Source: Flavobacteriaceae bacterium PRS1
GTDB lineage: Bacteria; Bacteroidota; Bacteroidia; Flavobacteriales; Flavobacteriaceae
Reading direction: 5' to 3'
Assembly: GCA_003709165.1 (NCBI GenBank)
Contig: RDRZ01000001.1
Coordinates: 62,001-126,000 of the forward strand
Length of the DNA stretch: 64,000 bases
In this document: in pieces, positions 17,865-56,946 of the stretch
Layout: each line of letters opens with the position of its first letter
Numbering within the stretch: position 1 is the stretch's first letter
Translations under genes and position numbers: made by a program
Notes under the pieces: generated by a model
Database searches by the model: none
What the model was told of the DNA's origin: nothing
The model's input: only the letters and a program-made list of their open reading frames with translations

Positions 17865-19255
17865 ATGAAAAAACTTATACTCACTTTAGTATTGAGCTTG
17901 TTATTATCAAATTTAATTTGTCATGCACAATTATTTAGCTCAAAGAAAATTATAAATTCTTCTACAGGCAATCTGCCTAGTGTTATTGATTCTGGGTATA
18001 TAGATAATGATGCCAATATAGATATTATAATAGGTACTACTGGTGGCAACACTATAGAGTGGTATAAAAATAATGGCAACGGTACGTTTACATTGCAAAC
18101 ATTAATCACTTCAAATTTACAAGGTGTACTTGGATTGACACTAGCTGATCTTGACAATGACTTAGATATTGATGTTATTGCTACAGCATATTTTGGTGCT
18201 AAACTTGTTTGGTTTGAAAATGATGGTAATGGTAATTTTGGATCAGAACAATTAATTGCATCCGAAATTGGTGAAGCTGGCTCGGTTAAAGTTGGGTTAA
18301 TAGATAGTAATAATACAAAAGATATAGTAGTAGCAAGTGGAACTTCAGGACAAGTAATATGGTTTTCTAATGATGGCTCTGGAAACTTTAGCGGTGCACA
18401 ATTAATAGGCTCTGATGGGTCAGGACCTAGAAGCATTGATTTAGCAGATTTTAATGGTGATGGCGATATAGATGTTGTTGTAGGTTTTATAACTACTCGA
18501 AATGTAGAACTTTATGAAAACCAATTGTCACAAAACGGAACGGTATCTTTTTTAAGAGACAGTAATGGATCCATTTCTTCAGGTAGTTCATTTATAAACG
18601 AGGTGTCGTTTGGTGACGTAGATAACGATAATCAATTAGATATTATAAAAGTAGACAAAAACGGTCCACTTCTTGGTATAAAAAAGAAGCTGATGGTACT
18701 TTTAGTGAAAGCACATTAAGCACAACATATAGCAAACCCTCTACTGCTATAGTAGCCGATTTTGATGATGATACGACAAACGATATTGTAGTTGGCTACT
18801 CAAGTACTGGTATGGATGCAATAACTTGGTATGACCAATCTGTCCCTGGTGAATTTAATCCCGAAGTACTTATTGATAATTCTCAAGATAATATCAATCA
18901 GATTACAATAAATGATTTTGATGGTGATGGAGACTTAGATATCGCCAGTATTTCTCAAGGGCAAAATGCTCTAAATTGGTTTGAAAATCTAACATATTCG
19001 GCGGCTTTAAGTAACACAGAATTTGAAAAAAGAAACATAGTTATTTATCCTAATCCAACAACTAATAAGTTATTCTTTAAAGGTAATTTTAATGAAACCC
19101 TTACAGTAACTGTTTATGATATATTAGGAAAAATGGTAATAAACAGTACTGTTAATTTAAGCAATAATGAATTAGATGTATCACGCTTAAACAAAGGTGT
19201 TTACATCATCAGTTTTAAAGACTTTAATTCTACTTTTAAATTTATTAAAGAATAA
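17865..19255 (+). pseudogene. Secreted FG-GAP/VCBS repeat protein with T9SS sorting domain, split by a frameshift
   Basis: The intact protein would have about 462 residues. A signal peptide (MKKLILTLVLSLLLSNLICHAQ) leads into FG-GAP/VCBS beta-propeller repeats with Ca-binding DxDxDxD-like loops (DLDNDLDIDV, DFNGDGDIDV, DVDNDNQLDI). A T9SS type A sorting domain (VIYPNPTTNKLFFKG... to FKFIKE) ends it. The first frame breaks off with a stop at 18719 after a frame change near 18665. Restoring one T after GGT there gives NGSTSWYKKEADGTF and continues without stops through 18812 to 19255. So a one-base deletion, or a sequencing error, splits the gene. As it stands, the exported part lacks the sorting domain and would not be secreted by T9SS. 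Confidence 0.88.
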
Positions 19256-19333: not shown

Positions 19334-22301
19334 TCAACGTTTTAAAGATGAGGAAACAATTTTCTTAACAACTGTTCCATTACTAGTTGTCAATCTTACA
19401 AAGAATAACTGATTAGCTGCTCTCGACAAATCGATTCTGGTTTTATCTTGAGTGCCTCTAACATAGTTATAATTAATGTCAGATGTTATTAAAGCTCCTT
19501 TAATATCGAATACTTCAATTTTCACATTTGTATCATAATCAAACGAATACTTAATCGTAACTTCTTTATCAAATGGAACTGGATAAGCTGTAAAATCTAC
19601 ACGAGCTGTTTCTGTGCTTACTTTATCTTCGGTACATGCAGCATCTCCACCTTCGTGAGAACCTCCGTTACCTCTATCATCATCACATCTACATACTTCT
19701 TCGCAAACTACAGCGTGAGTAATAATCCAGAATGGTGCAGTTACATTTGTAAATACAACTTTATAATTATAAACATGGTCTAAAGCTCCACTGTTATAAG
19801 TATATTGACCAGGTGCAACAGTTGGAGTGCCATCTATATTTGGATACTTATTATCGCAACCAATATATATATGAGCTTCACTCATTGCGTAATCCATTAT
19901 TCCATCATTAACAACATTTGTTATGTTGTAAGTTACGGTTACTGTAGTTCCTGAATAGTTAACTGTTACTGTACCTACATGAGTACCTCTGTATAAATCA
20001 CAACGTCCTGCACCTGCGTATAAATCTAAAACATGTTCACCTTCTGTATTAATATAATTAGTCCATCCCCAACGTCTAAAATCATCATCTCTGAAACATG
20101 TACTATTGCCATCAACAGTCGCTCCATCTTCACCATCTGTAGTAAATACACCAAATGCTGTTGTACAGTTATCCCAGTCGTCGTAGTATCTAGTTGCTGT
20201 TACTGTTTCAGTATCAGAATTTCCACAATCATCTTCTACATAGAAGGTATATACAGCTTCCTCATAACATCCAAGATCTGTAATTACTGGTACCCCAGAA
20301 GAAATAGTTCCGCCATCTGCGCAATTATCTGTCCAATCAGCCCATAATTCAGTAGGGAATAAATCATTACATAAATCATCAACACTTGGGAAATTGATTA
20401 TTTCTGGATCTATAGTATCAGTTACCGTAATCGTTTGACTCAAGGTCGTTGAGTTATCACAGTTATCCGTAGCTGTTCAGGTTCTTGTCAATGTATAACT
20501 GTCCGCGCAAGCTCCATCTGTTCTGACTTCACCATCATAAACAACTGTAACATCTGAATCACAATTATCTGTCGCACTGGCTTGTCCTACTTCTGGAACT
20601 GAATCACATTCTACATCTGCATCTGCAGGAATTGTTAACTCTGGATCTTCTTCATCAGCATTTAAAGTAAAGGTAGAACTATAAATAGTTTCATTAGGGT
20701 TAGGTTCACAAGTTACTACTGAGTTACAATCGTCCGTTACACTTATTTTAACTGTAAGGCTTCCACCATCACAAACATTACTTGGTGCTACAAGATTGTC
20801 TAAATCTATTACTTGGTCATTTTCATCGGTATAAACAATTACTGGATTTTGTATAGCAGCTGCCGTTACAGCAGTTTTTAGATTTGCTATCCATTGTGTA
20901 AAAGCAGTCCCATCATTACCACAATCTACATTTACATCAGTTGAGTAATCAATTATAATATCAGCTCCAGGATTTAAGGAAACTATAGCTATATCGCTGG
21001 CAGTAAAACCACCACCTAAAGTAGCATTAACCAAATAGGCTCCAGAAGCTGTAACAGAATAAGGATTTCCTACATAATCTGGTGCGTTAACTTCATCAAA
21101 AGTGTAATCGTCTGGGTTTGTTGGATCACCTCCATCATTTAACACACCTATATACCATTCGTAAGTATCAAAAATAAAGTTTGATGTAGCCTCTAAATCT
21201 ACATCAGCTCCTTCATAACAATCTATACTTACATCGGCTACATCAACCTGAACATCTACTACATTTCCAAAATTAAATGGACCTACTAAATCTTTAAGTT
21301 CTGCAGTAAAGGAATCTGAAGATCTTGTTTTAACCATTACACTACCAAAAGAATTAGAACATGGTCCTTGTAATGCACTGGTATCGAAACCAAAAGCAGT
21401 AGCATTAATTGCAATTTCAGCAAGACTAAATGTTGCATATTCGTCTGGATCTGCAATATCTCCTCCACTATCTATTGTTGGCCATGGTGTCCCATTTACT
21501 GGACCACCTGCATTTACCTGTGCCCAAATTGCAGTATCTAGAGGTTGTATTAATGCATAGCCATAAGTTCCTGCGCCATCTCCACCATCATAATGTGGGA
21601 AACCTCCATTACCATCTCCAAAATTAAATGGTATGTTAGGTAGTCCATTCAAATCATCAAGTTCAGCTGCATCTATATCTTCCAAATCCATCCAAACAAA
21701 TATCCTGATATCTGCTACAACACCTCCATTAGTATAATTCACAGACATAATTACATCACCTAATTGAGTAGGGAGTCCATCAGCTGCAAAAACAAATGCG
21801 GTATGGCCTCCTTCGTTACCATAAAATGTTATATTAAGATTGATATCTTGCATATAACGCATCCAACCAAGTTCTTAAGTCTGGATCAACATAAGGACCA
21901 ACTTCAGACATGCCTAGTCTAACAGCAACATTACCACCACTATAAAGATCGGTGGCTTTTAGCCCAGTTGGTATCGCAATTACTCCTCGACCTGATTGAC
22001 CATCGTTAAAATCAAACCAATCATCGGTTCCATCTTGAGGGTTTAACATTGGTGCAGGCCAAAATGTTAAAACATCGGCTTCTACATCGGCATCAATACC
22101 AAAATTGACAATAACAGTTGTTTCCAGTGTTACTGTTTGTGAATACACAAAGTTTCCACCAAACAAAAAAAGCATAACAACACCAAAGCTTGTTATACTT
22201 TTTAAAAATTTAGAACTAAAATTATTTTTAGTCCAAGAAGATGTTGAGGGTTTTACAGTTTTCCCTAGTTGAGTAAAATTGTACATAAACATAGTATTCA
22301 T
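19334..22301 (-). pseudogene. Large secreted protein with T9SS sorting domain, broken by a frameshift and a stop codon
   Basis: Three pieces line up as one gene of about 990 codons. The first has a long signal region (start MNTMFMYNFTQ at 22301, hydrophobic SFGVVMLFLFGGNFVYSQ). It changes frame between 21834 and 21862, where LRTWLDA should continue into YMQDINLNITFYG. The second piece ends at a TGA (20477-20479) in LTRT*TATDNCDNS. Related HYR-like repeats have LTRTWTATD, so TGG became TGA. The same frame then runs on to the end. Repeated motifs (ADADVECDS, DDCNSVVTCEP, TITVTDTIDP) mark Ig-like/HYR adhesin modules. The C-terminus is a T9SS type A domain (FTAYPVPFDKEVTIKY...VKKIVSSSLKR). With two lesions the gene is probably dead. 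Confidence 0.87.
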
Positions 22302-22572
22302 TTTAATTAATAAATTGTTTACATAACAATAAAATAGGCACCGTAGATGAGGGTCTATAACCAATTTTGTTAAACACAAAAATGATTTAACACAAGTATG
22401 TTAAAGAAAATGTAGAAAGAGGCATTTAATTTGCTATTAATCGAATGCTATCAATATAAAAATACTATTAAAACAAGTAAAAGAGAATTACTTTTAATTA
22501 TATTATCTCAAAGTTAAATCTTTTTATTAAAAATCACAAAAAAAATTCTTAACATTTCGATGAACTGCATAT

Positions 22573-48554: not shown

Positions 48555-49445
48555 TTAGTAGCTCCACATATCTTGTTCGAAATTTCGAATCTTTTCTATA
48601 ATTCTGTCCGATTCTAAAAGTTGCATTAATGCATTATTGCTAATGTATTCGCTAACTGCTCTATCGCTTTGTATATTCTCTTCTCTAAACACATAGCCAT
48701 TAAAACGCCTGGAATTTAAGAGGTGATCGAATGATATAGGCATAGCACTGTTTTTTCCATTAAAAGCCTTTGCTTTATGCAAGATTCCTCTTGCGTCTGG
48801 AAAGAATACCCAAAATAAAGGCACTAAATCGCTTTCGTCGGTATCTATAAAGTTAACATCAGGTGCTACTGGAGCAATACCCAATAAACGATATCTTAAC
48901 TCACTTAAACGCTTATCGAAATACCAAAGTCCTTTAATGTGGTACTCAACAATATCTGCAGCTGTAATTTCTCTTGTATTAATATATTCAGCAGAGAGCT
49001 CTTCGCCTGCGTTTATTTGTTCAATACCTAACTCGGTTGTATCAACCATTTTTAAAGCACCTTCAATATCCTTTAGTGTACGTTTGGCCGTAAAATAAGA
49101 ATCGTCATAAATATTTTCGATGTCGCCATTTTTAACACTTGTCATTAACACATCGAATAAAGAGCGCCTATTTCTGCCAATATTATTAGTATCGACTGGG
49201 TAATACAATGGGAAGTTTATACGTTCGTCAAGAACTATTTTTTCCCATATCATTCTGGAATATAGGATATCTCTATCATCGACATATCCATATTCTAATG
49301 GTTTATCGTTGTCTAATGCTATTTGTGCGTCTGTTTTAACACCAATTTCATCCGGACTCTTTGCATTTAAAATATTTGCTTGAGCAAACGAACTTGTTAT
49401 AGCAAAAACACATAAAACGATAACTATTAAACTTTTTAATTTCAT
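48555..49445 (-). CDS. gldN: Gliding motility / type IX secretion protein GldN
   Basis: A 296-residue periplasmic protein with a signal peptide (MKLKSLIVIVLCVFAITSSFAQ), last in the gldK-L-M-N order. The SRMIWEKIVLDERINFPLYYP and DILYSRM segments and the C-terminal FREENIQSDRAVSEYISNNALMQLLESDRI fit GldN/PorN. GldN joins GldK in the periplasmic ring under the outer membrane of the T9SS. It follows gldM after 55 bases and is closed by the terminator at 48500. The T9SS cargo genes found elsewhere in the window depend on this machine. Confidence 0.93.
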   Translation of the reverse strand: MKLKSLIVIVLCVFAITSSFAQANILNAKSPDEIGVKTDAQIALDNDKPLEYGYVDDRDILYSRMIWEKIVLDERINFPLYYPVDTNNIGRNRRSLFDVLMTSVKNGDIENIYDDSYFTAKRTLKDIEGALKMVDTTELGIEQINAGEELSAEYINTREITAADIVEYHIKGLWYFDKRLSELRYRLLGIAPVAPDVNFIDTDESDLVPLFWVFFPDARGILHKAKAFNGKNSAMPISFDHLLNSRRFNGYVFREENIQSDRAVSEYISNNALMQLLESDRIIEKIRNFEQDMWSY

Positions 49446-49500: not shown

Positions 49501-51063
49501 TTAATTTGTTAGCTCAATAAAGACAGGTGATACTTTTTTAAGTATTATACTAACACCTTTTGCTTTCGCTTCTATATTAAATATCTGTACTGCAGAACCA
49601 CGTTTTGCTTTACGCAACGCAGATTTTGCTCTACTATTTAACTTATTACCACTAACATTTATTGTTGGCTGTCCCGGAACTTTAAATTTAAATCCTTTAA
49701 CATTCAAAGGTAATTCAAAATCAAAATCTTCAAATTTTGCACCAATAGTTGAAATTTCAAGGCTTTTACGTTGCATTTTTATCAAGCCGCTTTCGCCTCT
49801 TAAAGTCCCTGTTGGTCTTGGTAAGTCTTTGATTCTAAATTTTGCACCATCACTAACTCTTTCTCCACCAGGTAGTATTCCTGTTACATTAATCGTAACC
49901 TCTCTGCCTTTAACTTTAGTAACATCAATAATATACTTGCTTTTTTTAATTCTTATTAAACCAGCTGCTGTAGCTTTAACGTTATTGTCAGAAATACCTG
50001 CAAACGAAATCGTCATTGGGTTTTTCACACCACGATATACCACATTCATCTTATCGGCAGAAATTGTAGCCGAATTAGGTTTAGGAACTGTTACAAAAGA
50101 TTGATCTACAAGAACTTCCGTAGGCACTCCATCTTCCATGAAAATTAATTTTCCTTCAATTTTATGTTCTCCGGGATTTCCTGTACCAAAATTTAGCTTT
50201 ACCTTACCTTTTTCAATAGAATATTCGGAATCTGAAAGTGGTCTACCATCTAAAGTTAACTCTACACTATTTGGTTTAGTTGTATCATCTTTTCTACCTA
50301 ACACAATTTGACCGTCAAACTGCTCACCATTAAAGTAAGCTGACTTTGAAGTTTCCAGTAGAGTCATATAATTAGTCATAGAAACTTCACTAGTAAGTTT
50401 TCCTTGTAACATAACTCCTAAAACTTCCGATTGGGTTGTTTTAATATCTGCTTGTAGTTGCGTCATTTTAGTTAATGATGCTACTAAAGGAAATTCTCTA
50501 TAATGATAAATTAACCATGATCGTACATTACCATCTCTGTCAGTTATTGGTTCTGTAGAAAACTTCTTTTTAACAGCGTTAGATATGTCGTTATATTTAG
50601 AACCGTCGCTTAATACTTTAACAACACCATCTCTAAATTTAGTAATTTCGTCTAAAAAACGTTGTCCTTCATCTTTCAATTTTTCTCCAGTAAAAAACTC
50701 GTCATCTAAAAAATCAGGTCTATCCATGATTTCATAATCTTGTGGATCGTCTAAAGATGCTGTCATTTTAGACTTAATCTCTTCTAAATAAGAATTGAAT
50801 CCATCTGATAGAGATGAGATTTGGTCTGCCTTGTCTTTTAATGGTTTATACTTTGCTGGTTGATCTTTAGCTTTTTCAGCTAAACCATCCATAAACGCTT
50901 TATTTCTTGTCGTTGCTGCTTCGTTAGATTCGGTTAATCTTTCATTCATTAAACCGAATGCCGACAGCACTTCTTTCGACATATTTAATGCTAACATTGC
51001 TATAAATATTAAATACATCAAGTTTATCATTTTCTGCCTTGCAGATAATTTTGCTCCTGCCAT
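49501..51063 (-). CDS. gldM: Gliding motility / type IX secretion motor protein GldM
   Basis: A 520-residue inner-membrane protein. The single N-terminal helix (RQKMINLMYLIFIAMLALNMSKEVLSAF, about 9-35) pairs with the GldL helices to form the proton-driven motor. The rest is a periplasmic rod of four domains reaching GldK/GldN, with typical Ig-like segments (VVYRGVKNPMTISFAGI, RPTGTLRGESGLI). The conserved start MAGAKLSARQKMIN is intact. The length is normal for GldM/PorM. Confidence 0.95.
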   Translation of the reverse strand: MAGAKLSARQKMINLMYLIFIAMLALNMSKEVLSAFGLMNERLTESNEAATTRNKAFMDGLAEKAKDQPAKYKPLKDKADQISSLSDGFNSYLEEIKSKMTASLDDPQDYEIMDRPDFLDDEFFTGEKLKDEGQRFLDEITKFRDGVVKVLSDGSKYNDISNAVKKKFSTEPITDRDGNVRSWLIYHYREFPLVASLTKMTQLQADIKTTQSEVLGVMLQGKLTSEVSMTNYMTLLETSKSAYFNGEQFDGQIVLGRKDDTTKPNSVELTLDGRPLSDSEYSIEKGKVKLNFGTGNPGEHKIEGKLIFMEDGVPTEVLVDQSFVTVPKPNSATISADKMNVVYRGVKNPMTISFAGISDNNVKATAAGLIRIKKSKYIIDVTKVKGREVTINVTGILPGGERVSDGAKFRIKDLPRPTGTLRGESGLIKMQRKSLEISTIGAKFEDFDFELPLNVKGFKFKVPGQPTINVSGNKLNSRAKSALRKAKRGSAVQIFNIEAKAKGVSIILKKVSPVFIELTN

Positions 51064-51096: not shown

Positions 51097-51735
51097 TTAG
51101 CTTTTGTTCATAGCAGAAAGCATTCCACCATATACACCATTTAATGATGATAAGTTAGTAGCTAATGAAGCCATTTGCTCTTTTAATTTAGCAGCATTTT
51201 CTACAGCTTCTTCATTAACTGAAGTTTGACGGTTAACAGTTTCTAACTGCACTTTATACAAACTGTTTAAAGATTCCATTTGTGCAGCAGCAAGAGCCAT
51301 TTCTTCGTTATATTTTTTAGTAGCATGCATTCCGTCAATAGTAGGAGTCATACTTTTGGCAGCACCTTCAAAGTTTTTAATGCTATCTCCAAGACTTGCC
51401 ATAAGTTCGGCATCTATTTGTGCATCTTTAAGTAATTCATCTAATTTTTTAGATAAAATCCCTTCTGCATCTTGGGGACCTTCTGCTTTATCAGATTTTC
51501 CTCCTTGTAATTCAGGATATACTAAAGCCCAGTCTAAATCGTCGTCAACCGGTTCGAAAGCTGAAATCGCAAAAATAATTGCTTCGGTAATTAAACCAAT
51601 AGATAACATTACATTACCAGTAAGTGGTCCTATATTAAAATGAATAATTTTAAATAGTGCTCCAATAATTACTATCGATGCTCCAAATCCGTAGGACATA
51701 TTCATGAATTTCCTCATTGCTCTTGATTGTGCCAT
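51097..51735 (-). CDS. gldL: Gliding motility / type IX secretion motor protein GldL
   Basis: A 212-residue inner-membrane protein with two helices near the N-terminus (FMNMSYGFGASIVIIGALFK and GNVMLSIGLITEAIIFAISAF). They carry the buried Lys/His and Glu residues used in the proton path of the GldLM motor. The C-terminal part is a helical cytoplasmic domain (about 85-212). It starts 50 bases after gldK and ends 33 bases before gldM. Length and motifs are normal for the family. Confidence 0.95.
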   Translation of the reverse strand: MAQSRAMRKFMNMSYGFGASIVIIGALFKIIHFNIGPLTGNVMLSIGLITEAIIFAISAFEPVDDDLDWALVYPELQGGKSDKAEGPQDAEGILSKKLDELLKDAQIDAELMASLGDSIKNFEGAAKSMTPTIDGMHATKKYNEEMALAAAQMESLNSLYKVQLETVNRQTSVNEEAVENAAKLKEQMASLATNLSSLNGVYGGMLSAMNKS

Positions 51736-51785: not shown

Positions 51786-53171
51786 TTATCTTTTAAATTT
51801 CTTTCTGAGTTTTCTTGCATTCAAGGTTACTTCTGTTCCCATATAATCTTGAACAGTTCTAAAACCAATATAGCTTCTTGCAGAATCTGCATATTCATAG
51901 TCTCTGGAACTTACCTGTAAGAAATACGCAACATCTTTCCAGGAACCTCCTCTTACAACTTTACGTTCGTTTTCTTCATCATCAACATTTGGGTTTATGG
52001 TTGAAGAATACTCGTAAGAATTAGGATCGTAGGACGACATTACCCATTCCGATACATTTCCTGCCATATTATATAAGTCGTAATCATTTGGCTCGTAAGA
52101 TTTTGCTTCTACAGTATATAATGCCTGATCTGCGGCATAATCACCACGTAATGGTTTAAAGTTTGCCATAAAACAACCTCTGTCGTTTTTTGCATAAGGT
52201 CCTCCCCAAGGAAATGTTGCACCCTGAAGTCCACCTCTTGCTGCGTACTCCCATTCTGCTTCAGATGGTAGCCTAAACTTATTTATATTTCTTGCAGATT
52301 TTGACTTTTGGTATCCATTTTTATAAATAGTTCGCCATTGACAGAAAGCATTAGCTTGTTTCCATGTAATCCCAACAACAGGGTATTCGCCATATGCGTC
52401 ATGCCAGAAATAATCGTTATGCATAGGCTCATTATACGAATACGAAAAATCTCTAATCCATACTGTTGTATCCGGATAAACTTCTATAGATTCTCTGTAT
52501 ATAACATCGCTACGTTTTAATTCTCTATATTTTGCAGCCGTTTTTATATCCATCGTAGTATATTGAAATTTAAATTTTGACACGTCCCAAGTACGTTCGT
52601 TATTATAAGACTCTTCCATTGGAAGGTACATAGTGTCCATAACTTCTGCATAGTACTCATCTGGATATTCGTCAGTATCAAATATTAAGTCAACATCATG
52701 ATTTAACTTTCTACCTTCATAACCTGTTTCTCCTAAACCAGTATAATTATCCAACATATATTTTTCGTAAACACTCATATCTGTAGTGTCAGTATCTTTA
52801 AATGCAAATTGACCAATTCCATCAGAATCTAAATCGGTTTCTCCAACTTCGTCTGCAAGAATTGCAAGTTTGGTTCTAATAATAGAATCTCTTACCCAAT
52901 TAACAAATTGGCGATACTCGCTATTTGTAATTTCGGTTTCATCCATATAGAATGCTCTAACAGTAACTGTTCTCGTAGGCGCATTTTTTACTCCAGCTAA
53001 ATCATCGTCCGATTTACCCATAATAAAAGCACCACCTGGAATTAATGTCATTCCATAAGGTTTTTCCGGATGCCATTTTTTGCCTTTAACGCCAACCAAT
53101 TCTCCTCTGTCTCCAGAACCACAACTGGTTAATATAGCTAGAACTGCGATTAATAATACAAACTTTTTCAT
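51786..53171 (-). CDS. gldK: Gliding motility / type IX secretion lipoprotein GldK
   Basis: A 461-residue lipoprotein (MKKFVLLIAVLAILTSCGSG, lipobox Cys17) with a formylglycine-generating-enzyme (SUMF1)-like domain: GMTLIPGGAFIMGKSDDD, DETEITNSEYRQFVNW, FRLPSEAEWEYAARGG, NVSEWV and VVRGGSWKD. GldK/PorK lines the T9SS periplasmic ring at the outer membrane. It is first in the gldKLMN block and has a promoter-like sequence upstream, in the 136-base gap after the ureohydrolase-like gene. Confidence 0.95.
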   Translation of the reverse strand: MKKFVLLIAVLAILTSCGSGDRGELVGVKGKKWHPEKPYGMTLIPGGAFIMGKSDDDLAGVKNAPTRTVTVRAFYMDETEITNSEYRQFVNWVRDSIIRTKLAILADEVGETDLDSDGIGQFAFKDTDTTDMSVYEKYMLDNYTGLGETGYEGRKLNHDVDLIFDTDEYPDEYYAEVMDTMYLPMEESYNNERTWDVSKFKFQYTTMDIKTAAKYRELKRSDVIYRESIEVYPDTTVWIRDFSYSYNEPMHNDYFWHDAYGEYPVVGITWKQANAFCQWRTIYKNGYQKSKSARNINKFRLPSEAEWEYAARGGLQGATFPWGGPYAKNDRGCFMANFKPLRGDYAADQALYTVEAKSYEPNDYDLYNMAGNVSEWVMSSYDPNSYEYSSTINPNVDDEENERKVVRGGSWKDVAYFLQVSSRDYEYADSARSYIGFRTVQDYMGTEVTLNARKLRKKFKR

Positions 53172-53202
53172 GTCTATGAATTCGAGGTTAATTTTGAGAG
53201 TG

Positions 53203-53233
53203 TAAACATATTTATATATTTTGACAAAAACAA
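53203..53233 (-). promoter_or_regulatory. Promoter of gldKLMN
   Basis: On the minus strand TTG (53233-53231), 20 bases, then TATGTTTA (53210-53203), one base from TAnnTTTG. The gldK ATG is 32 bases downstream of the box. It gives the block its own start apart from topA. Confidence 0.45.
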
Positions 53234-53307
53234 CTTTTTTGGTAAAAAATGTGTATTTTAACCTAAATATTTGCGTTTAGTCGATGTAATTCATTGATTA
53301 TATGTCT

Positions 53308-54474
53308 TTAAACGCTATTTTTTTTGTAGGCTTTATACCATCTTTTAGGTATTTTCCCATTACTGGCTTCTATATAATCTTCGTGCATGCAAGGTAATAA
53401 CGTAAGTTGCTTTAATTTATTATTAAAATTCGGTAAAAAAGGAATTTCTATCCACCAACGACCAATTTTATTACTTTTATAAAAGACAAGTTCTTCATTA
53501 TCAATTAAAACAGTAAATTTTTGATAACTTTCTTTATCTGAAAAATCATCATCTGTTATCCTACAATTTACACCTTCGATAAAATACCAAATCATTTGTG
53601 CTATTAGCATTGACGTTGCGTCATCATCCTTTGAAGGTTTATAGCCAAAAATTCCAAAAGAAGAGACCTTATTGCTAATACCTGCATATCTTGTAACAGC
53701 ACAAACTTCTTTCCCGTCGAAACCATTAGGCGAATATTTTTGCCGTGTACTTACTTCTGAAGACCTAATACTGCACAAATCCAAACTCACAATATTAGCG
53801 TCTCTCATTATAGGTTCAACACTATTAATGTTATTAATAATCTCTCCTAACCTATGCGCTTCAAAATAGAGCTTTTCCATTAAATCTATTTCTTCTTGTG
53901 AGTTAAAATAGGTTTGATAGCCTAATGTACAATAATTAAATAAGTTATAGGGTTGTTCTAAAATTATTTTTCCAAGGTAACTATTGTCTTTAATTGGTCT
54001 GGAGGAGTCTCCTAAATCGAATTTACTATCTACATTTACAATATTAACCATTGGTAAAAAATTGTCGTAAGCCCTGTAAACAGCATAAGTAAGGTCTTGA
54101 CTACCGCCAATAATAATTGGTATAATACCCTTTTCTAATAAGATAGTTATTGTTGTTTGTAAAGCAAAATAGGTGTCTTCAACTGTTTCACCTTTTAGAA
54201 TATCTCCAAGATCTGCAACTGTAAAATGCCAGTTACCTGGAAATAAAGCATACAATGATTTCCGCACTTCGCTTAACTGAAAGTCTTCACCTATATAATT
54301 AACATCATTTCTATTTTCAAGTACACCAACTATGGCAATTTGCACATCTTCTAAATCCGGAATACCATTTTGTTGAGAATGAATCTTTAATTTTCTTCCA
54401 AGCACTTGTGTTGATAATAGTTCAATATGAGCTAAAACCAAATTCTGAACAGGTGAGAGAAAACTAAAGTTCAT
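53308..54474 (-). CDS. Ureohydrolase-fold protein (formimidoylglutamase-like) lacking several metal ligands
   Basis: A 388-residue member of the arginase/agmatinase/formimidoylglutamase superfamily by overall pattern: GIIPIIIGGSQDLTYAVY, VNIVNVDSKFDLGD and ANIVSLDLCSIRSSE. Active members have GGDH, DAHxD and SxDxDxxDP at these places. Here the first His is replaced (GGSQD), the His of DAHxD is Lys (DSKFD) and the second Asp of DxD is Cys (DLC). About half of the Mn ligands are therefore absent and hydrolase activity is doubtful. The gene starts 3 bases after topA and precedes gldK, a neighbourhood I recall from other Flavobacteriaceae. A structural or regulatory role linked to T9SS is possible. 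Confidence 0.8.
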   Translation of the reverse strand: MNFSFLSPVQNLVLAHIELLSTQVLGRKLKIHSQQNGIPDLEDVQIAIVGVLENRNDVNYIGEDFQLSEVRKSLYALFPGNWHFTVADLGDILKGETVEDTYFALQTTITILLEKGIIPIIIGGSQDLTYAVYRAYDNFLPMVNIVNVDSKFDLGDSSRPIKDNSYLGKIILEQPYNLFNYCTLGYQTYFNSQEEIDLMEKLYFEAHRLGEIINNINSVEPIMRDANIVSLDLCSIRSSEVSTRQKYSPNGFDGKEVCAVTRYAGISNKVSSFGIFGYKPSKDDDATSMLIAQMIWYFIEGVNCRITDDDFSDKESYQKFTVLIDNEELVFYKSNKIGRWWIEIPFLPNFNNKLKQLTLLPCMHEDYIEASNGKIPKRWYKAYKKNSV

Positions 54475-54477
54475 AAA

Positions 54478-56946
54478 TTACTTCTTTTTTGTAGCTTTTT
54501 TCTTTGGAGTTTTTTTATCGATAATATCTAAAGCGTCTTCAAGTGTAAATTTAGAAACATCTATCGTTTTAGGCAACTCTATTTTTATTTTTCCTTTTAA
54601 TATAGTATGTCTTCCCCATCGTGCTTTTTCAACTCGAATGCCTTCGGCTTCCCAATGGTGGATTAATTTATCTTTTTCTTTTTGGATTTTATCTTCAATT
54701 AATTCAATAATATCCATTTCGGATAAATTGTCCCAATCGTATTTTCTATTCACGTTAATAAACATATTATTCCATTTTATAAATGGCCCAAAACGTCCTT
54801 TTCCTTTTTGTACTGGTAATTCTTGATACATATATATAGGTGCATCAGCTTTTTCCTTTTCTTTTATAAGAATTATAGCTTCTTCAAGTTCAATACTTAA
54901 AGGATTCATTCCTTTAGGCAAGGACACGAATTTTTTCCCGAATTTAACATAAGGTCCAAACCTACCGTTATTAACTTCTATTTCTTCACCTTCATAAGCT
55001 CCTAGTTTTTTTGGAAGCTGAAATAAATCCATCGCTTCGTCGTAAGTAATGGTATTAATTTGTTGTTCTGGAGATAAACTTGCAAATTGAGGTTTTTCTT
55101 CATCATCAATGGTTCCTATTTGTACCATTGGTCCAAATTTACCGAGACGAACACTTACTTGTCTTCCATTAGAATCTTCTCCAAGAATACGTTTTCCTGA
55201 TTCTCGTTCTGCATTTGCCTGTACGCTTTCAACTTTTGGGTGAAAGTCTTTATAAAAATCCTTCATCATTTTAGTCCAACTCTGTTTTCCTGCAGCAATA
55301 TCATCGAATTGATCTTCAACTTTAGCGGTAAAATTATAGTCTAAAATAGTTTCGAAATGATTCACTAAAAAGTCATTTACAATCATTCCAATATCTGTTG
55401 GAACTAATTTGCCTTTATCTGATCCTACCTTTTCGGTTAATAAATTATCTTTTACATTCCCATTTTGAAGTGTAAGTTGCGAATATTTACGTTCTACGCC
55501 TTCAACTGCTCCTTTTTCTATATAACCTCTGTTTTGAATCGTGGAAATTGTTGGTGCATACGTCGATGGACGACCAATACCAAGTTCTTCTAATTTTTTA
55601 ACTAAAGATGCTTCGCTAAATCTATAAGGTGGACGAGTATAGCGTTCGGTAGCTGTAATATAATTATAATGAAGTATTTGGTTTACTTCTAAAATTGGTA
55701 GCATTCCTTCTTGTTCTTGCTTTTCGTCATCAGTACTTTCAAGATATACCTTTAAAAAACCATCAAATTTAATTACTTCTCCATTCACCATAAACGTGTC
55801 ATTATGAGTTGAAGCACTAATATTTACAATGGTAAGTTCTAACTGTGCTTCGCTCATTTGAGAAGCAATGGCGCGTTTCCAAATCAATTCGTACAATCGT
55901 GCTTGGTCTCTATCAATATTTACAGAGCTACGAGAAAAATCGGTTGGACGAATTGCCTCGTGAGCTTCTTGTGCACCTTTAGATTTTCCTTTATAATTAC
56001 GCGGTTTGCTATATTGCGAACCATAAGTATTTTTAATTTCTAACTCGGCTGCTTGTCTTGCATCATTAGATAAATTAACACTATCTGTTCTCATATAAGT
56101 AATAAAACCTGCTTCGTAAAGACGCTGCGCCATAGTCATCGTTTTACTTACTGAAAAATACAGTTTACGAGATGCTTCTTGTTGTAATGTTGATGTTGTG
56201 AAAGGTGCAGCTGGTGATTTTTTTGCAGGCTTTTTTTCTAAATCTGAAACTTTAAATTCTGCTGAAGTATTAGTGCCTAAAAATTTATGTGCATCTTCTT
56301 TTGTTGCAAATGTTTTTGAAAGTTTAGCTTTAAATAATTGCCCGCTTTCAGTAGAAAATTCAGCATCTATTCTATATGATACTTTAGCTTGAAAATTTTG
56401 AATTTCTCTTTCACGTTCTACAATTAAACGCACAGATACCGATTGCACTCTTCCAGCCGATAAACCTCCTTTTATTTTACGCCAAAGTATTGGAGAGAGT
56501 TCGTAACCAACAATTCTATCCAATACACGTCGTGCTTGTTGTGCATCTACTAAATCGTAATCAATACCTCGTGGATTTTTTATAGCATTCTGAATTGCGG
56601 TTTTTGTTATTTCATGAAATACAATACGTTTGGTTTTTGCTTTATCAAGTTTTAATGTTTCTGCCAAATGCCATGCAATAGCTTCTCCTTCTCTATCTTC
56701 ATCACTAGCCAACCAAACCATATCAGCTTTTTTGGCTAAATCTTTTAATTTTTTTACTACTGCTTTTTTGTCTTTAGAAACTTCATACTTTGGTTTAAAA
56801 TCCCCTACAACATCAACGCCTAATTCTTTTGAAGGCAAGTCGGCAATATGTCCAAAACTGGACTCAACTTTAAAGTCTTTTCCAAGAAATTTTTCGATAG
56901 TTTTTGCTTTTGCAGGTGATTCAACAATCACTAAATTCTTCGCCAT
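54478..56946 (-). CDS. topA: DNA topoisomerase I
   Basis: An 822-residue type IA topoisomerase. The N-terminal TOPRIM domain has VIVESPAKAKTIEKFLG and DEDREGEAIAWHL. The catalytic tyrosine lies in GFITYMRTDS (about residue 283), and GRPSTYAPTISTIQNRGYI follows. In place of the enteric zinc fingers the C-terminus has repeated small modules (GRFGPYVKFGKKFVSLPKG, GRFGPFIKWNNMFIN) and a Lys-rich tail, as in other Bacteroidota. It relaxes negative supercoils. A ureohydrolase-fold gene follows 3 bases later, suggesting one transcript. Confidence 0.96.
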   Translation of the reverse strand: MAKNLVIVESPAKAKTIEKFLGKDFKVESSFGHIADLPSKELGVDVVGDFKPKYEVSKDKKAVVKKLKDLAKKADMVWLASDEDREGEAIAWHLAETLKLDKAKTKRIVFHEITKTAIQNAIKNPRGIDYDLVDAQQARRVLDRIVGYELSPILWRKIKGGLSAGRVQSVSVRLIVEREREIQNFQAKVSYRIDAEFSTESGQLFKAKLSKTFATKEDAHKFLGTNTSAEFKVSDLEKKPAKKSPAAPFTTSTLQQEASRKLYFSVSKTMTMAQRLYEAGFITYMRTDSVNLSNDARQAAELEIKNTYGSQYSKPRNYKGKSKGAQEAHEAIRPTDFSRSSVNIDRDQARLYELIWKRAIASQMSEAQLELTIVNISASTHNDTFMVNGEVIKFDGFLKVYLESTDDEKQEQEGMLPILEVNQILHYNYITATERYTRPPYRFSEASLVKKLEELGIGRPSTYAPTISTIQNRGYIEKGAVEGVERKYSQLTLQNGNVKDNLLTEKVGSDKGKLVPTDIGMIVNDFLVNHFETILDYNFTAKVEDQFDDIAAGKQSWTKMMKDFYKDFHPKVESVQANAERESGKRILGEDSNGRQVSVRLGKFGPMVQIGTIDDEEKPQFASLSPEQQINTITYDEAMDLFQLPKKLGAYEGEEIEVNNGRFGPYVKFGKKFVSLPKGMNPLSIELEEAIILIKEKEKADAPIYMYQELPVQKGKGRFGPFIKWNNMFINVNRKYDWDNLSEMDIIELIEDKIQKEKDKLIHHWEAEGIRVEKARWGRHTILKGKIKIELPKTIDVSKFTLEDALDIIDKKTPKKKATKKK

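Follow-up and report, generated by a model that had tools for sequence, protein, structure and literature searches.

A class-wide family of putative pseudo-ureohydrolases, with a member encoded between topA and gldK in Flavobacteriaceae bacterium PRS1

What is the function of a protein that resembles an arginase-family hydrolase, has lost half of its expected metal ligands, and is encoded between topA and the gliding and T9SS genes gldKLMN? This question is raised by a gene of Flavobacteriaceae bacterium PRS1 in a 64,000-nucleotide stretch of contig RDRZ01000001.1, hereafter the window. The open reading frame lies at 53308..54474 on the minus strand and encodes 388 amino acids from ATG to TAA (stop codon 53308-53310); besides the reading frame itself, its Pfam match, structural model and dN/dS values identify it as a gene. 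On the same strand topA, the gene of DNA topoisomerase I (54478..56946; TIGR01051, 709 bits, cut-off 456), is 3 nt upstream, and 136 nt downstream begins the series gldK or porK (51786..53171; TIGR03525, 602 bits, cut-off 350), gldL or porL (51097..51735; TIGR03513, 215 bits, cut-off 68), gldM or porM (49501..51063; TIGR03517, 458 bits, cut-off 180) and gldN or porN (48555..49445; TIGR03523, 269 bits, cut-off 86), all on the minus strand. The first-pass annotation had described the gene as overlapping the topA-gldK neighbourhood; it is indeed located between these two genes, but it overlaps neither of them. The same annotation had placed hutH within the window, and this gene is found there (TIGR01225, 606 bits over a cut-off of 539), at a distance of 29 kb.

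The gene is under purifying selection, with dN/dS of 0.061-0.080 in four of the five nearest pairs (the fifth pair is saturated and its dS not estimable), and these values rule out a decaying gene. As judged from 19-residue means of hydrophobicity, whose maximum is 1.56, nowhere along its 388 residues does the protein reach the hydrophobicity of a usual membrane segment, and it looks cytoplasmic. Elsewhere in the window, three adjacent reading frames at 19334-22379 on the minus strand look like fragments of a single large secreted protein; a T9SS sorting domain is in the last of them, and frameshifts or an assembly error may possibly have split them. Two further reading frames at 17865-19255 on the plus strand resemble one frameshift-split protein, with a strong T9SS sorting domain in the second (60 bits, cut-off 23).

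The Pfam Arginase profile PF00491 is matched by the protein at 51.2 bits over a gathering cut-off of 22, which places it in the superfamily, and is matched at E <= 0.001 by 42 of the 44 members of our family alignment A1. The AlphaFold model of the protein (57 aligned sequences; pLDDT 90.1, pTM 0.91) has the predicted three-layer fold of the ureohydrolases, and the best solved match to this predicted model is the T. cruzi formiminoglutamase 2a0m (Z 33.7, 2.3 A over 277 residues). With the HutG profile TIGR01227 the score is 58.4 bits against the NCBI cut-off of 229.15, so that naming this gene formimidoylglutamase would be misleading, just as the first-pass annotation had warned; the same profile matches 43 of the 44 A1 members at E <= 0.001 (best E 5e-28), these being matches by E-value and not cut-off passes of single members. 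Moreover, the fold matches to the PDB are confined to residues 11-311, and beyond the PDB-matched part the protein carries a C-terminal extension (residues 307-388; 53311..53556, minus strand) where F331, W340 and C362 are invariant in A1. Modelled alone this module gives a pLDDT of 77.6, a fair model only, and in that form it has no match in the PDB at E <= 0.001.

The metal ligands merit a closer look. In what we take to be the arginase numbering, the six ligands are H101, D124, H126, D128, D232 and D234; the aligned residues in the window protein are Q126, D149, K151, D153, D232 and C234, with exactly three of the six replaced. They are found in the motifs GGSQD (residues 123-127; 54094..54108), where the canonical H101 is Q126, DSKFD (residues 149-153; 54016..54030), where D149 and D153 are kept and the canonical H126 is K151, and SLDLC (residues 230-234; 53773..53787), where D232 is kept and the canonical D234 is C234, all three on the minus strand. 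The outline of the three ligand motifs with these replacements had already been read from the single sequence, and the family alignment confirms it. It had also been proposed to align the homologues and ask whether the loss is general, and the answer is clear: among 207 distinct orthologues, a set that leaves out five divergent f5 rows (L098-L102), the outgroup rows and second copies, not a single one keeps all six ligands. At position 126 Q is found in 178 of them, with H in 21, N in five, K in two and one gap; positions 149, 153 and 232 are D in 204, 190 and 202 of the 207; position 151 is K in 76, R in 41, N in 39, Q in 14 and H in 12, other residues being fewer; and position 234 is D in six. 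No homologue with full ligands was found at the topA-gldK locus, and random ligand loss in one draft genome is ruled out by a loss that is family-wide. Among second arginase-family copies from 17 class genomes, every one retains the first four ligands and 16 retain all six, the remaining one being unread at the last two positions.

Two-metal hydrolysis in this superfamily requires the second metal site. Since H126 and D234 are lost, and the first histidine has turned into glutamine in most lineages, the protein should be unable to hydrolyse guanidino or formimino groups by the two-metal route, and from the established chemistry of the superfamily we infer that it is likely catalytically dead.

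The orthologues form a family of their own. In a tree of 57 rows, some of them long-branched, the 39 orthologue rows make up one side of a branch with support 100/100; the outgroup rows and the class's own canonical copies lie apart from them. Alignment A1 with its 44 rows has 15 invariant columns (R71, Y75, D88, G90, G123, Q187, E220, R224, G251, G265, W296, G301, F331, W340 and C362), and none of them is a ligand position. In the window's family the gene is present in 146 of 149 genomes and in all 124 good ones, with reduced genomes of 1.3-1.9 Mb included. In a draw from the whole class, a profile search gives a match in 367 of 395 genomes and in 319 of the 338 good ones, where the weak matches (G540 8e-22, G571 2e-20, G569 9e-20, G775 5e-9) may be canonical HutG instead of orthologues, and eight of the 28 negative genomes were identified through comparison of two match lists. 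The searches cover the best 150 or so places each among the matches listed, with some family loci sampled twice. We read the gene as the window's member of an orthologous family of pseudo-ureohydrolases that is spread over most of the class and has an extra conserved C-terminal module. Pseudoenzymes with a ureohydrolase fold have been described before; the literature searched yielded none that forms such a class-wide orthologous family and has a C-terminal module of its own. Among the matches listed for arginase-family or formimidoylglutamase genes together with gliding, T9SS, topA or gldK, none treats this gene as judged by its entry, with the first ten of 45 and the first ten of 63 matches covered in two of the searches; PMC1887533 contains no mention of arginase or formimino.

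The linkage of the gene to gld genes in relatives, which the first-pass annotation had relied on, holds well. Across 80 named loci topA is found in 79, gldK in 78 and both in 77, the three exceptions ending at contig edges. In 19 further loci with other family labels (L191-L209, of which L209 is a second f7 member), the order gene-porP-gldK is seen in 19 of 19 and topA comes before it in 18; these loci show the spread of the linkage and not its frequency, since they were chosen because they looked linked. With L084 and L085 added, the linkage is seen in 21 loci under 19 family labels other than the window's own. The order topA-gene-(porP)-gldKLMN is thus real and old. In one f2 locus (L095:4726-7830) a protein of 1035 aa with a T9SS sorting tail is encoded between topA and the gene. 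The linkage is also seen to break up in some groups: the sampled loci of f3, f4, f8 and f9 have neither topA nor gldKLMN near the gene; in L044, L085 and L208 topA is not adjacent and the gene remains with gldK or porP-gldK; and L097 is the one clear case where it remains with topA alone. In three f5 loci (L099, L101 and L102) the gene is represented by a divergent copy whose neighbours are murF and gldJ; porP is there as well, and porU was found in L099, the one scanned. Outside the T9SS-linked families no shared partner gene was found, as the neighbours differ between f3 (a thioredoxin-like protein), f4 (a D-Ala-D-Ala carboxypeptidase) and f8 (an oxidoreductase with ferredoxin and NAD-binding domains).

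The spacing bears on which unit the gene belongs to. In the window's family the distance from topA to the gene has a median of 6 nt and is at most 30 nt in 122 of 155 loci, and the distance from the gene to gldK has a median of 159 nt and is at most 30 nt in one of 155; in other families, with L002 left out as a copy of the window's own locus, the corresponding counts are 10 of 20 for topA and none of 21 for porP, the latter with a median of 144 nt. TAnnTTTG, which we take to be the promoter motif, occurs in 39 of 166 gaps before gldK or porP against a mean of 24 and a maximum of 33 in composition-only shuffles, a mild enrichment, and the longer form TTG-gap-TAnnTTTG occurs in 7 of these gaps against 2.9, inside the shuffle range. 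In view of spacing and motif count, the 136-nt gap of the window (53172..53307, minus strand) is a probable promoter region of the gld operon. In the literature gldK-N or porP-N are treated as a co-transcribed operon (PMC5790014, PMC5445135), with gldK being Fjoh_1853 in F. johnsoniae (PMC5445135). With the short gap to topA, the gap of about 150 nt to gldK or porP, and such an operon, the gene looks like the end of a topA unit, and judging by the spacing it is probably co-transcribed with topA.

Does the gene nevertheless belong to the secretion machine? The first-pass annotation had suggested that a dead enzyme fold has become a structural or regulatory part of gliding and T9SS, and the strongest rival to our own reading is of this kind: a cytoplasmic accessory of T9SS or gliding, perhaps one that partners GldL at its cytoplasmic part, which stays with its operon and which a few lineages have lost or have kept longer than the machine itself. 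The gene order in the window's family and in 19 other family labels (with L191-L209 preselected) speaks for it, as do the f5 copies beside porU-porP-gldJ-murF; moreover, GldM is also present in 316 of the 319 good class genomes with a match, and no genome of the phylum outside the class passes the GldL cut-off. However, gene and machine come apart in both directions. On the one side, 13 of the 329 good GldM-positive class genomes, under six family labels (four in f10, three each in f11 and f101, one each in f110, f120 and f69), have no match, and SprA was found in all five tested among them; up to four more GldM-positive good genomes have weak matches only, possibly to canonical copies. On the other side, in family f3 the gene is present in 91 of 91 good genomes and SprA in 82, and the nine SprA-less genomes, so called from a single profile, all keep the gene (E 1e-137 to 1e-154). 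GldM is found in seven of these nine; the two without it are G708 and G843, and G708 is also without GldK above the cut-off. In the SprA-less pair G874/G891 the gene has a dN/dS of 0.012. Together with the gap of about 150 nt to the gld operon, these observations leave the suggested T9SS part unsupported: a gldKLMN neighbourhood is there, and neither loss along with T9SS nor presence wherever T9SS is present was found. We regard the accessory as somewhat unlikely, and since the gene survives where the secretion machine was lost, it probably has its own job other than secretion.

Family f3 also gives a hint about how the machine has moved. In GldM, G862 shares 82-83% identity with G150 and G906, which belong to another genus, although for the gene under study the identity is no more than 60-61%; gldM thus seems to have been moved between f3 lineages and the gene not. 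Among the f3 loci L261-L269, GldM of the SprA-less genomes G150, G906, G899 and G862 is 81-90% identical across genera in the computed pairs, and a second GldM group (G874, G891, G861, G883 and G912) is at 54-59% from this first one. Judging from such comparisons, T9SS motor genes seem to have been transferred in f3. Since the gene has no T9SS genes linked to it in f3, it may have another role there than it has in the window's family. Three members of the window's family (G051, G065 and G083) are without the gene, gldK and gldM alike, but this joint loss was set aside as evidence: SprA is present in each of them and their completeness is 88%, so that the locus probably falls in an assembly gap.

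A second rival keeps the protein as an enzyme. Here a single-metal site made of Q/H126, D149, D153 and D232 would be under selection for a new chemistry, with Lys or Arg at 151 replacing the second metal in many members (117 of 207). The quartet Q/H-D-D-D is in fact kept in 187 of the 207 orthologues, in 20 of them with His, besides the high conservation of its three aspartates given above, and single-metal catalysis is to this extent possible. Against it, the three f2 members (L095-L097) keep the protein with N, S, I/V, S and N at the first five positions, and so have lost the quartet too, and the invariant residues of A1 are different from the ligands. Such an enzyme is in our opinion doubtful and rather improbable. 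A third rival is a partner of TopA, for example one that sets the level or activity of TopA, which would account for the 3-nt spacing in the window and is in agreement with the short topA distances in the family; yet the f3, f4, f8 and f9 loci without topA nearby, and the three loci that keep gldK or porP without it, make this very improbable. Finally, an ordinary formimidoylglutamase of the histidine pathway, though the closest PDB folds are formimidoylglutamases and hutH is real, is ruled out by the ligands (half of the six replaced), the score (58 vs 229 bits) and the tree (a branch separate from the canonical copies), with hutH 29 kb off, and is hardly credible at all.

The reading that we favour, to which we give about an even chance, is that of a conserved pseudo-ureohydrolase going with topA, a ligand-sensing or protein-binding regulator outside T9SS proper. 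A cytoplasmic regulator of this sort is favoured because the second metal site is gone and because the metal-free relative MetCb acts as a partner. Its ancestor would have been a formimidoylglutamase-like enzyme, in which one metal site was dismantled with the loss of H126 and D234, the first His of the other site was changed into Gln in most lineages, and a conserved module of about 80 residues was gained at the C-terminus. The old pocket may now hold a small ligand or one metal ion, and we infer that the C-terminal module and the conserved surface would engage another protein; the adjacency to gldKLMN would then reflect an ancient gene order and not a membership of the machine. The points against this regulator are that gene and gldKLMN are tightly linked across at least 20 family labels, that three loci keep gldK or porP-gldK without an adjacent topA (L044, L085 and L208) vs one that keeps topA only (L097), the f5 arrangement, and the quartet of one metal site kept in 187 of 207 orthologues. 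The fold of the predicted model, the ligand loss, the family-wide conservation, the selection, the spacing and the persistence without SprA or GldM stand independently of the role assigned to the protein.

A bolder form would make the protein a retired two-metal hydrolase that is now a one-metal or ligand sensor, which through its C-terminal module would tie nitrogen or amino-acid status to the topA unit and to the adjacent envelope machinery; this is distinctly improbable, and if it were true, the sensor would be a near-universal core protein of most of the class. The case is of some consequence, as a core gene of nearly all relatives matches only enzyme models of a chemistry that is very likely beyond it. 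Moreover, the gene adjoins a much-studied T9SS operon, and may be either a missed cytoplasmic part of T9SS or a neighbouring regulator independent of it.

In comparison with known systems, a precedent for a partner role is MetCb/MfmB of metformin hydrolase. This subunit binds no metal; it is a pseudoenzyme of the arginase family with a binding partner, and its gene sits beside that of the active partner MetCa (PMC11271267). The window protein has a weak sequence match and a fold match to it (8x3g, 8ryi, 8snf). In the window's genome, however, no active homologue is encoded next door within the assembly (84.65% complete): the only other PF00491 gene is on another contig (C32, the window being on C11), and is arginase-like, its 226.6 bits falling slightly short of the cut-off for arginase (227.6). 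With the PorKLMN/GldKLMN core of T9SS the gene shares the neighbourhood in most relatives, but no relation in sequence or fold was seen, and the two dissociate in both directions. HutG (B. subtilis 3m1r, T. cruzi 2a0m/4mxr, V. cholerae 1xfk) is alike in the fold over about residues 15-306, with Z of 28-34, and 3m1r is the best sequence-profile match of the window protein in the PDB; the window protein is unlike it in the broken two-metal set, in about 80 extra C-terminal residues and in the score below the cut-off. Another ureohydrolase fold without the two-metal cluster is the arginase-like protein of T. brucei (4RHI-4RHQ), reportedly described by Hai et al. in 2015. As far as the title of the entry 4rhm tells, three Asp and one His are replaced in it, whereas these three Asp are kept in the protein of the window.
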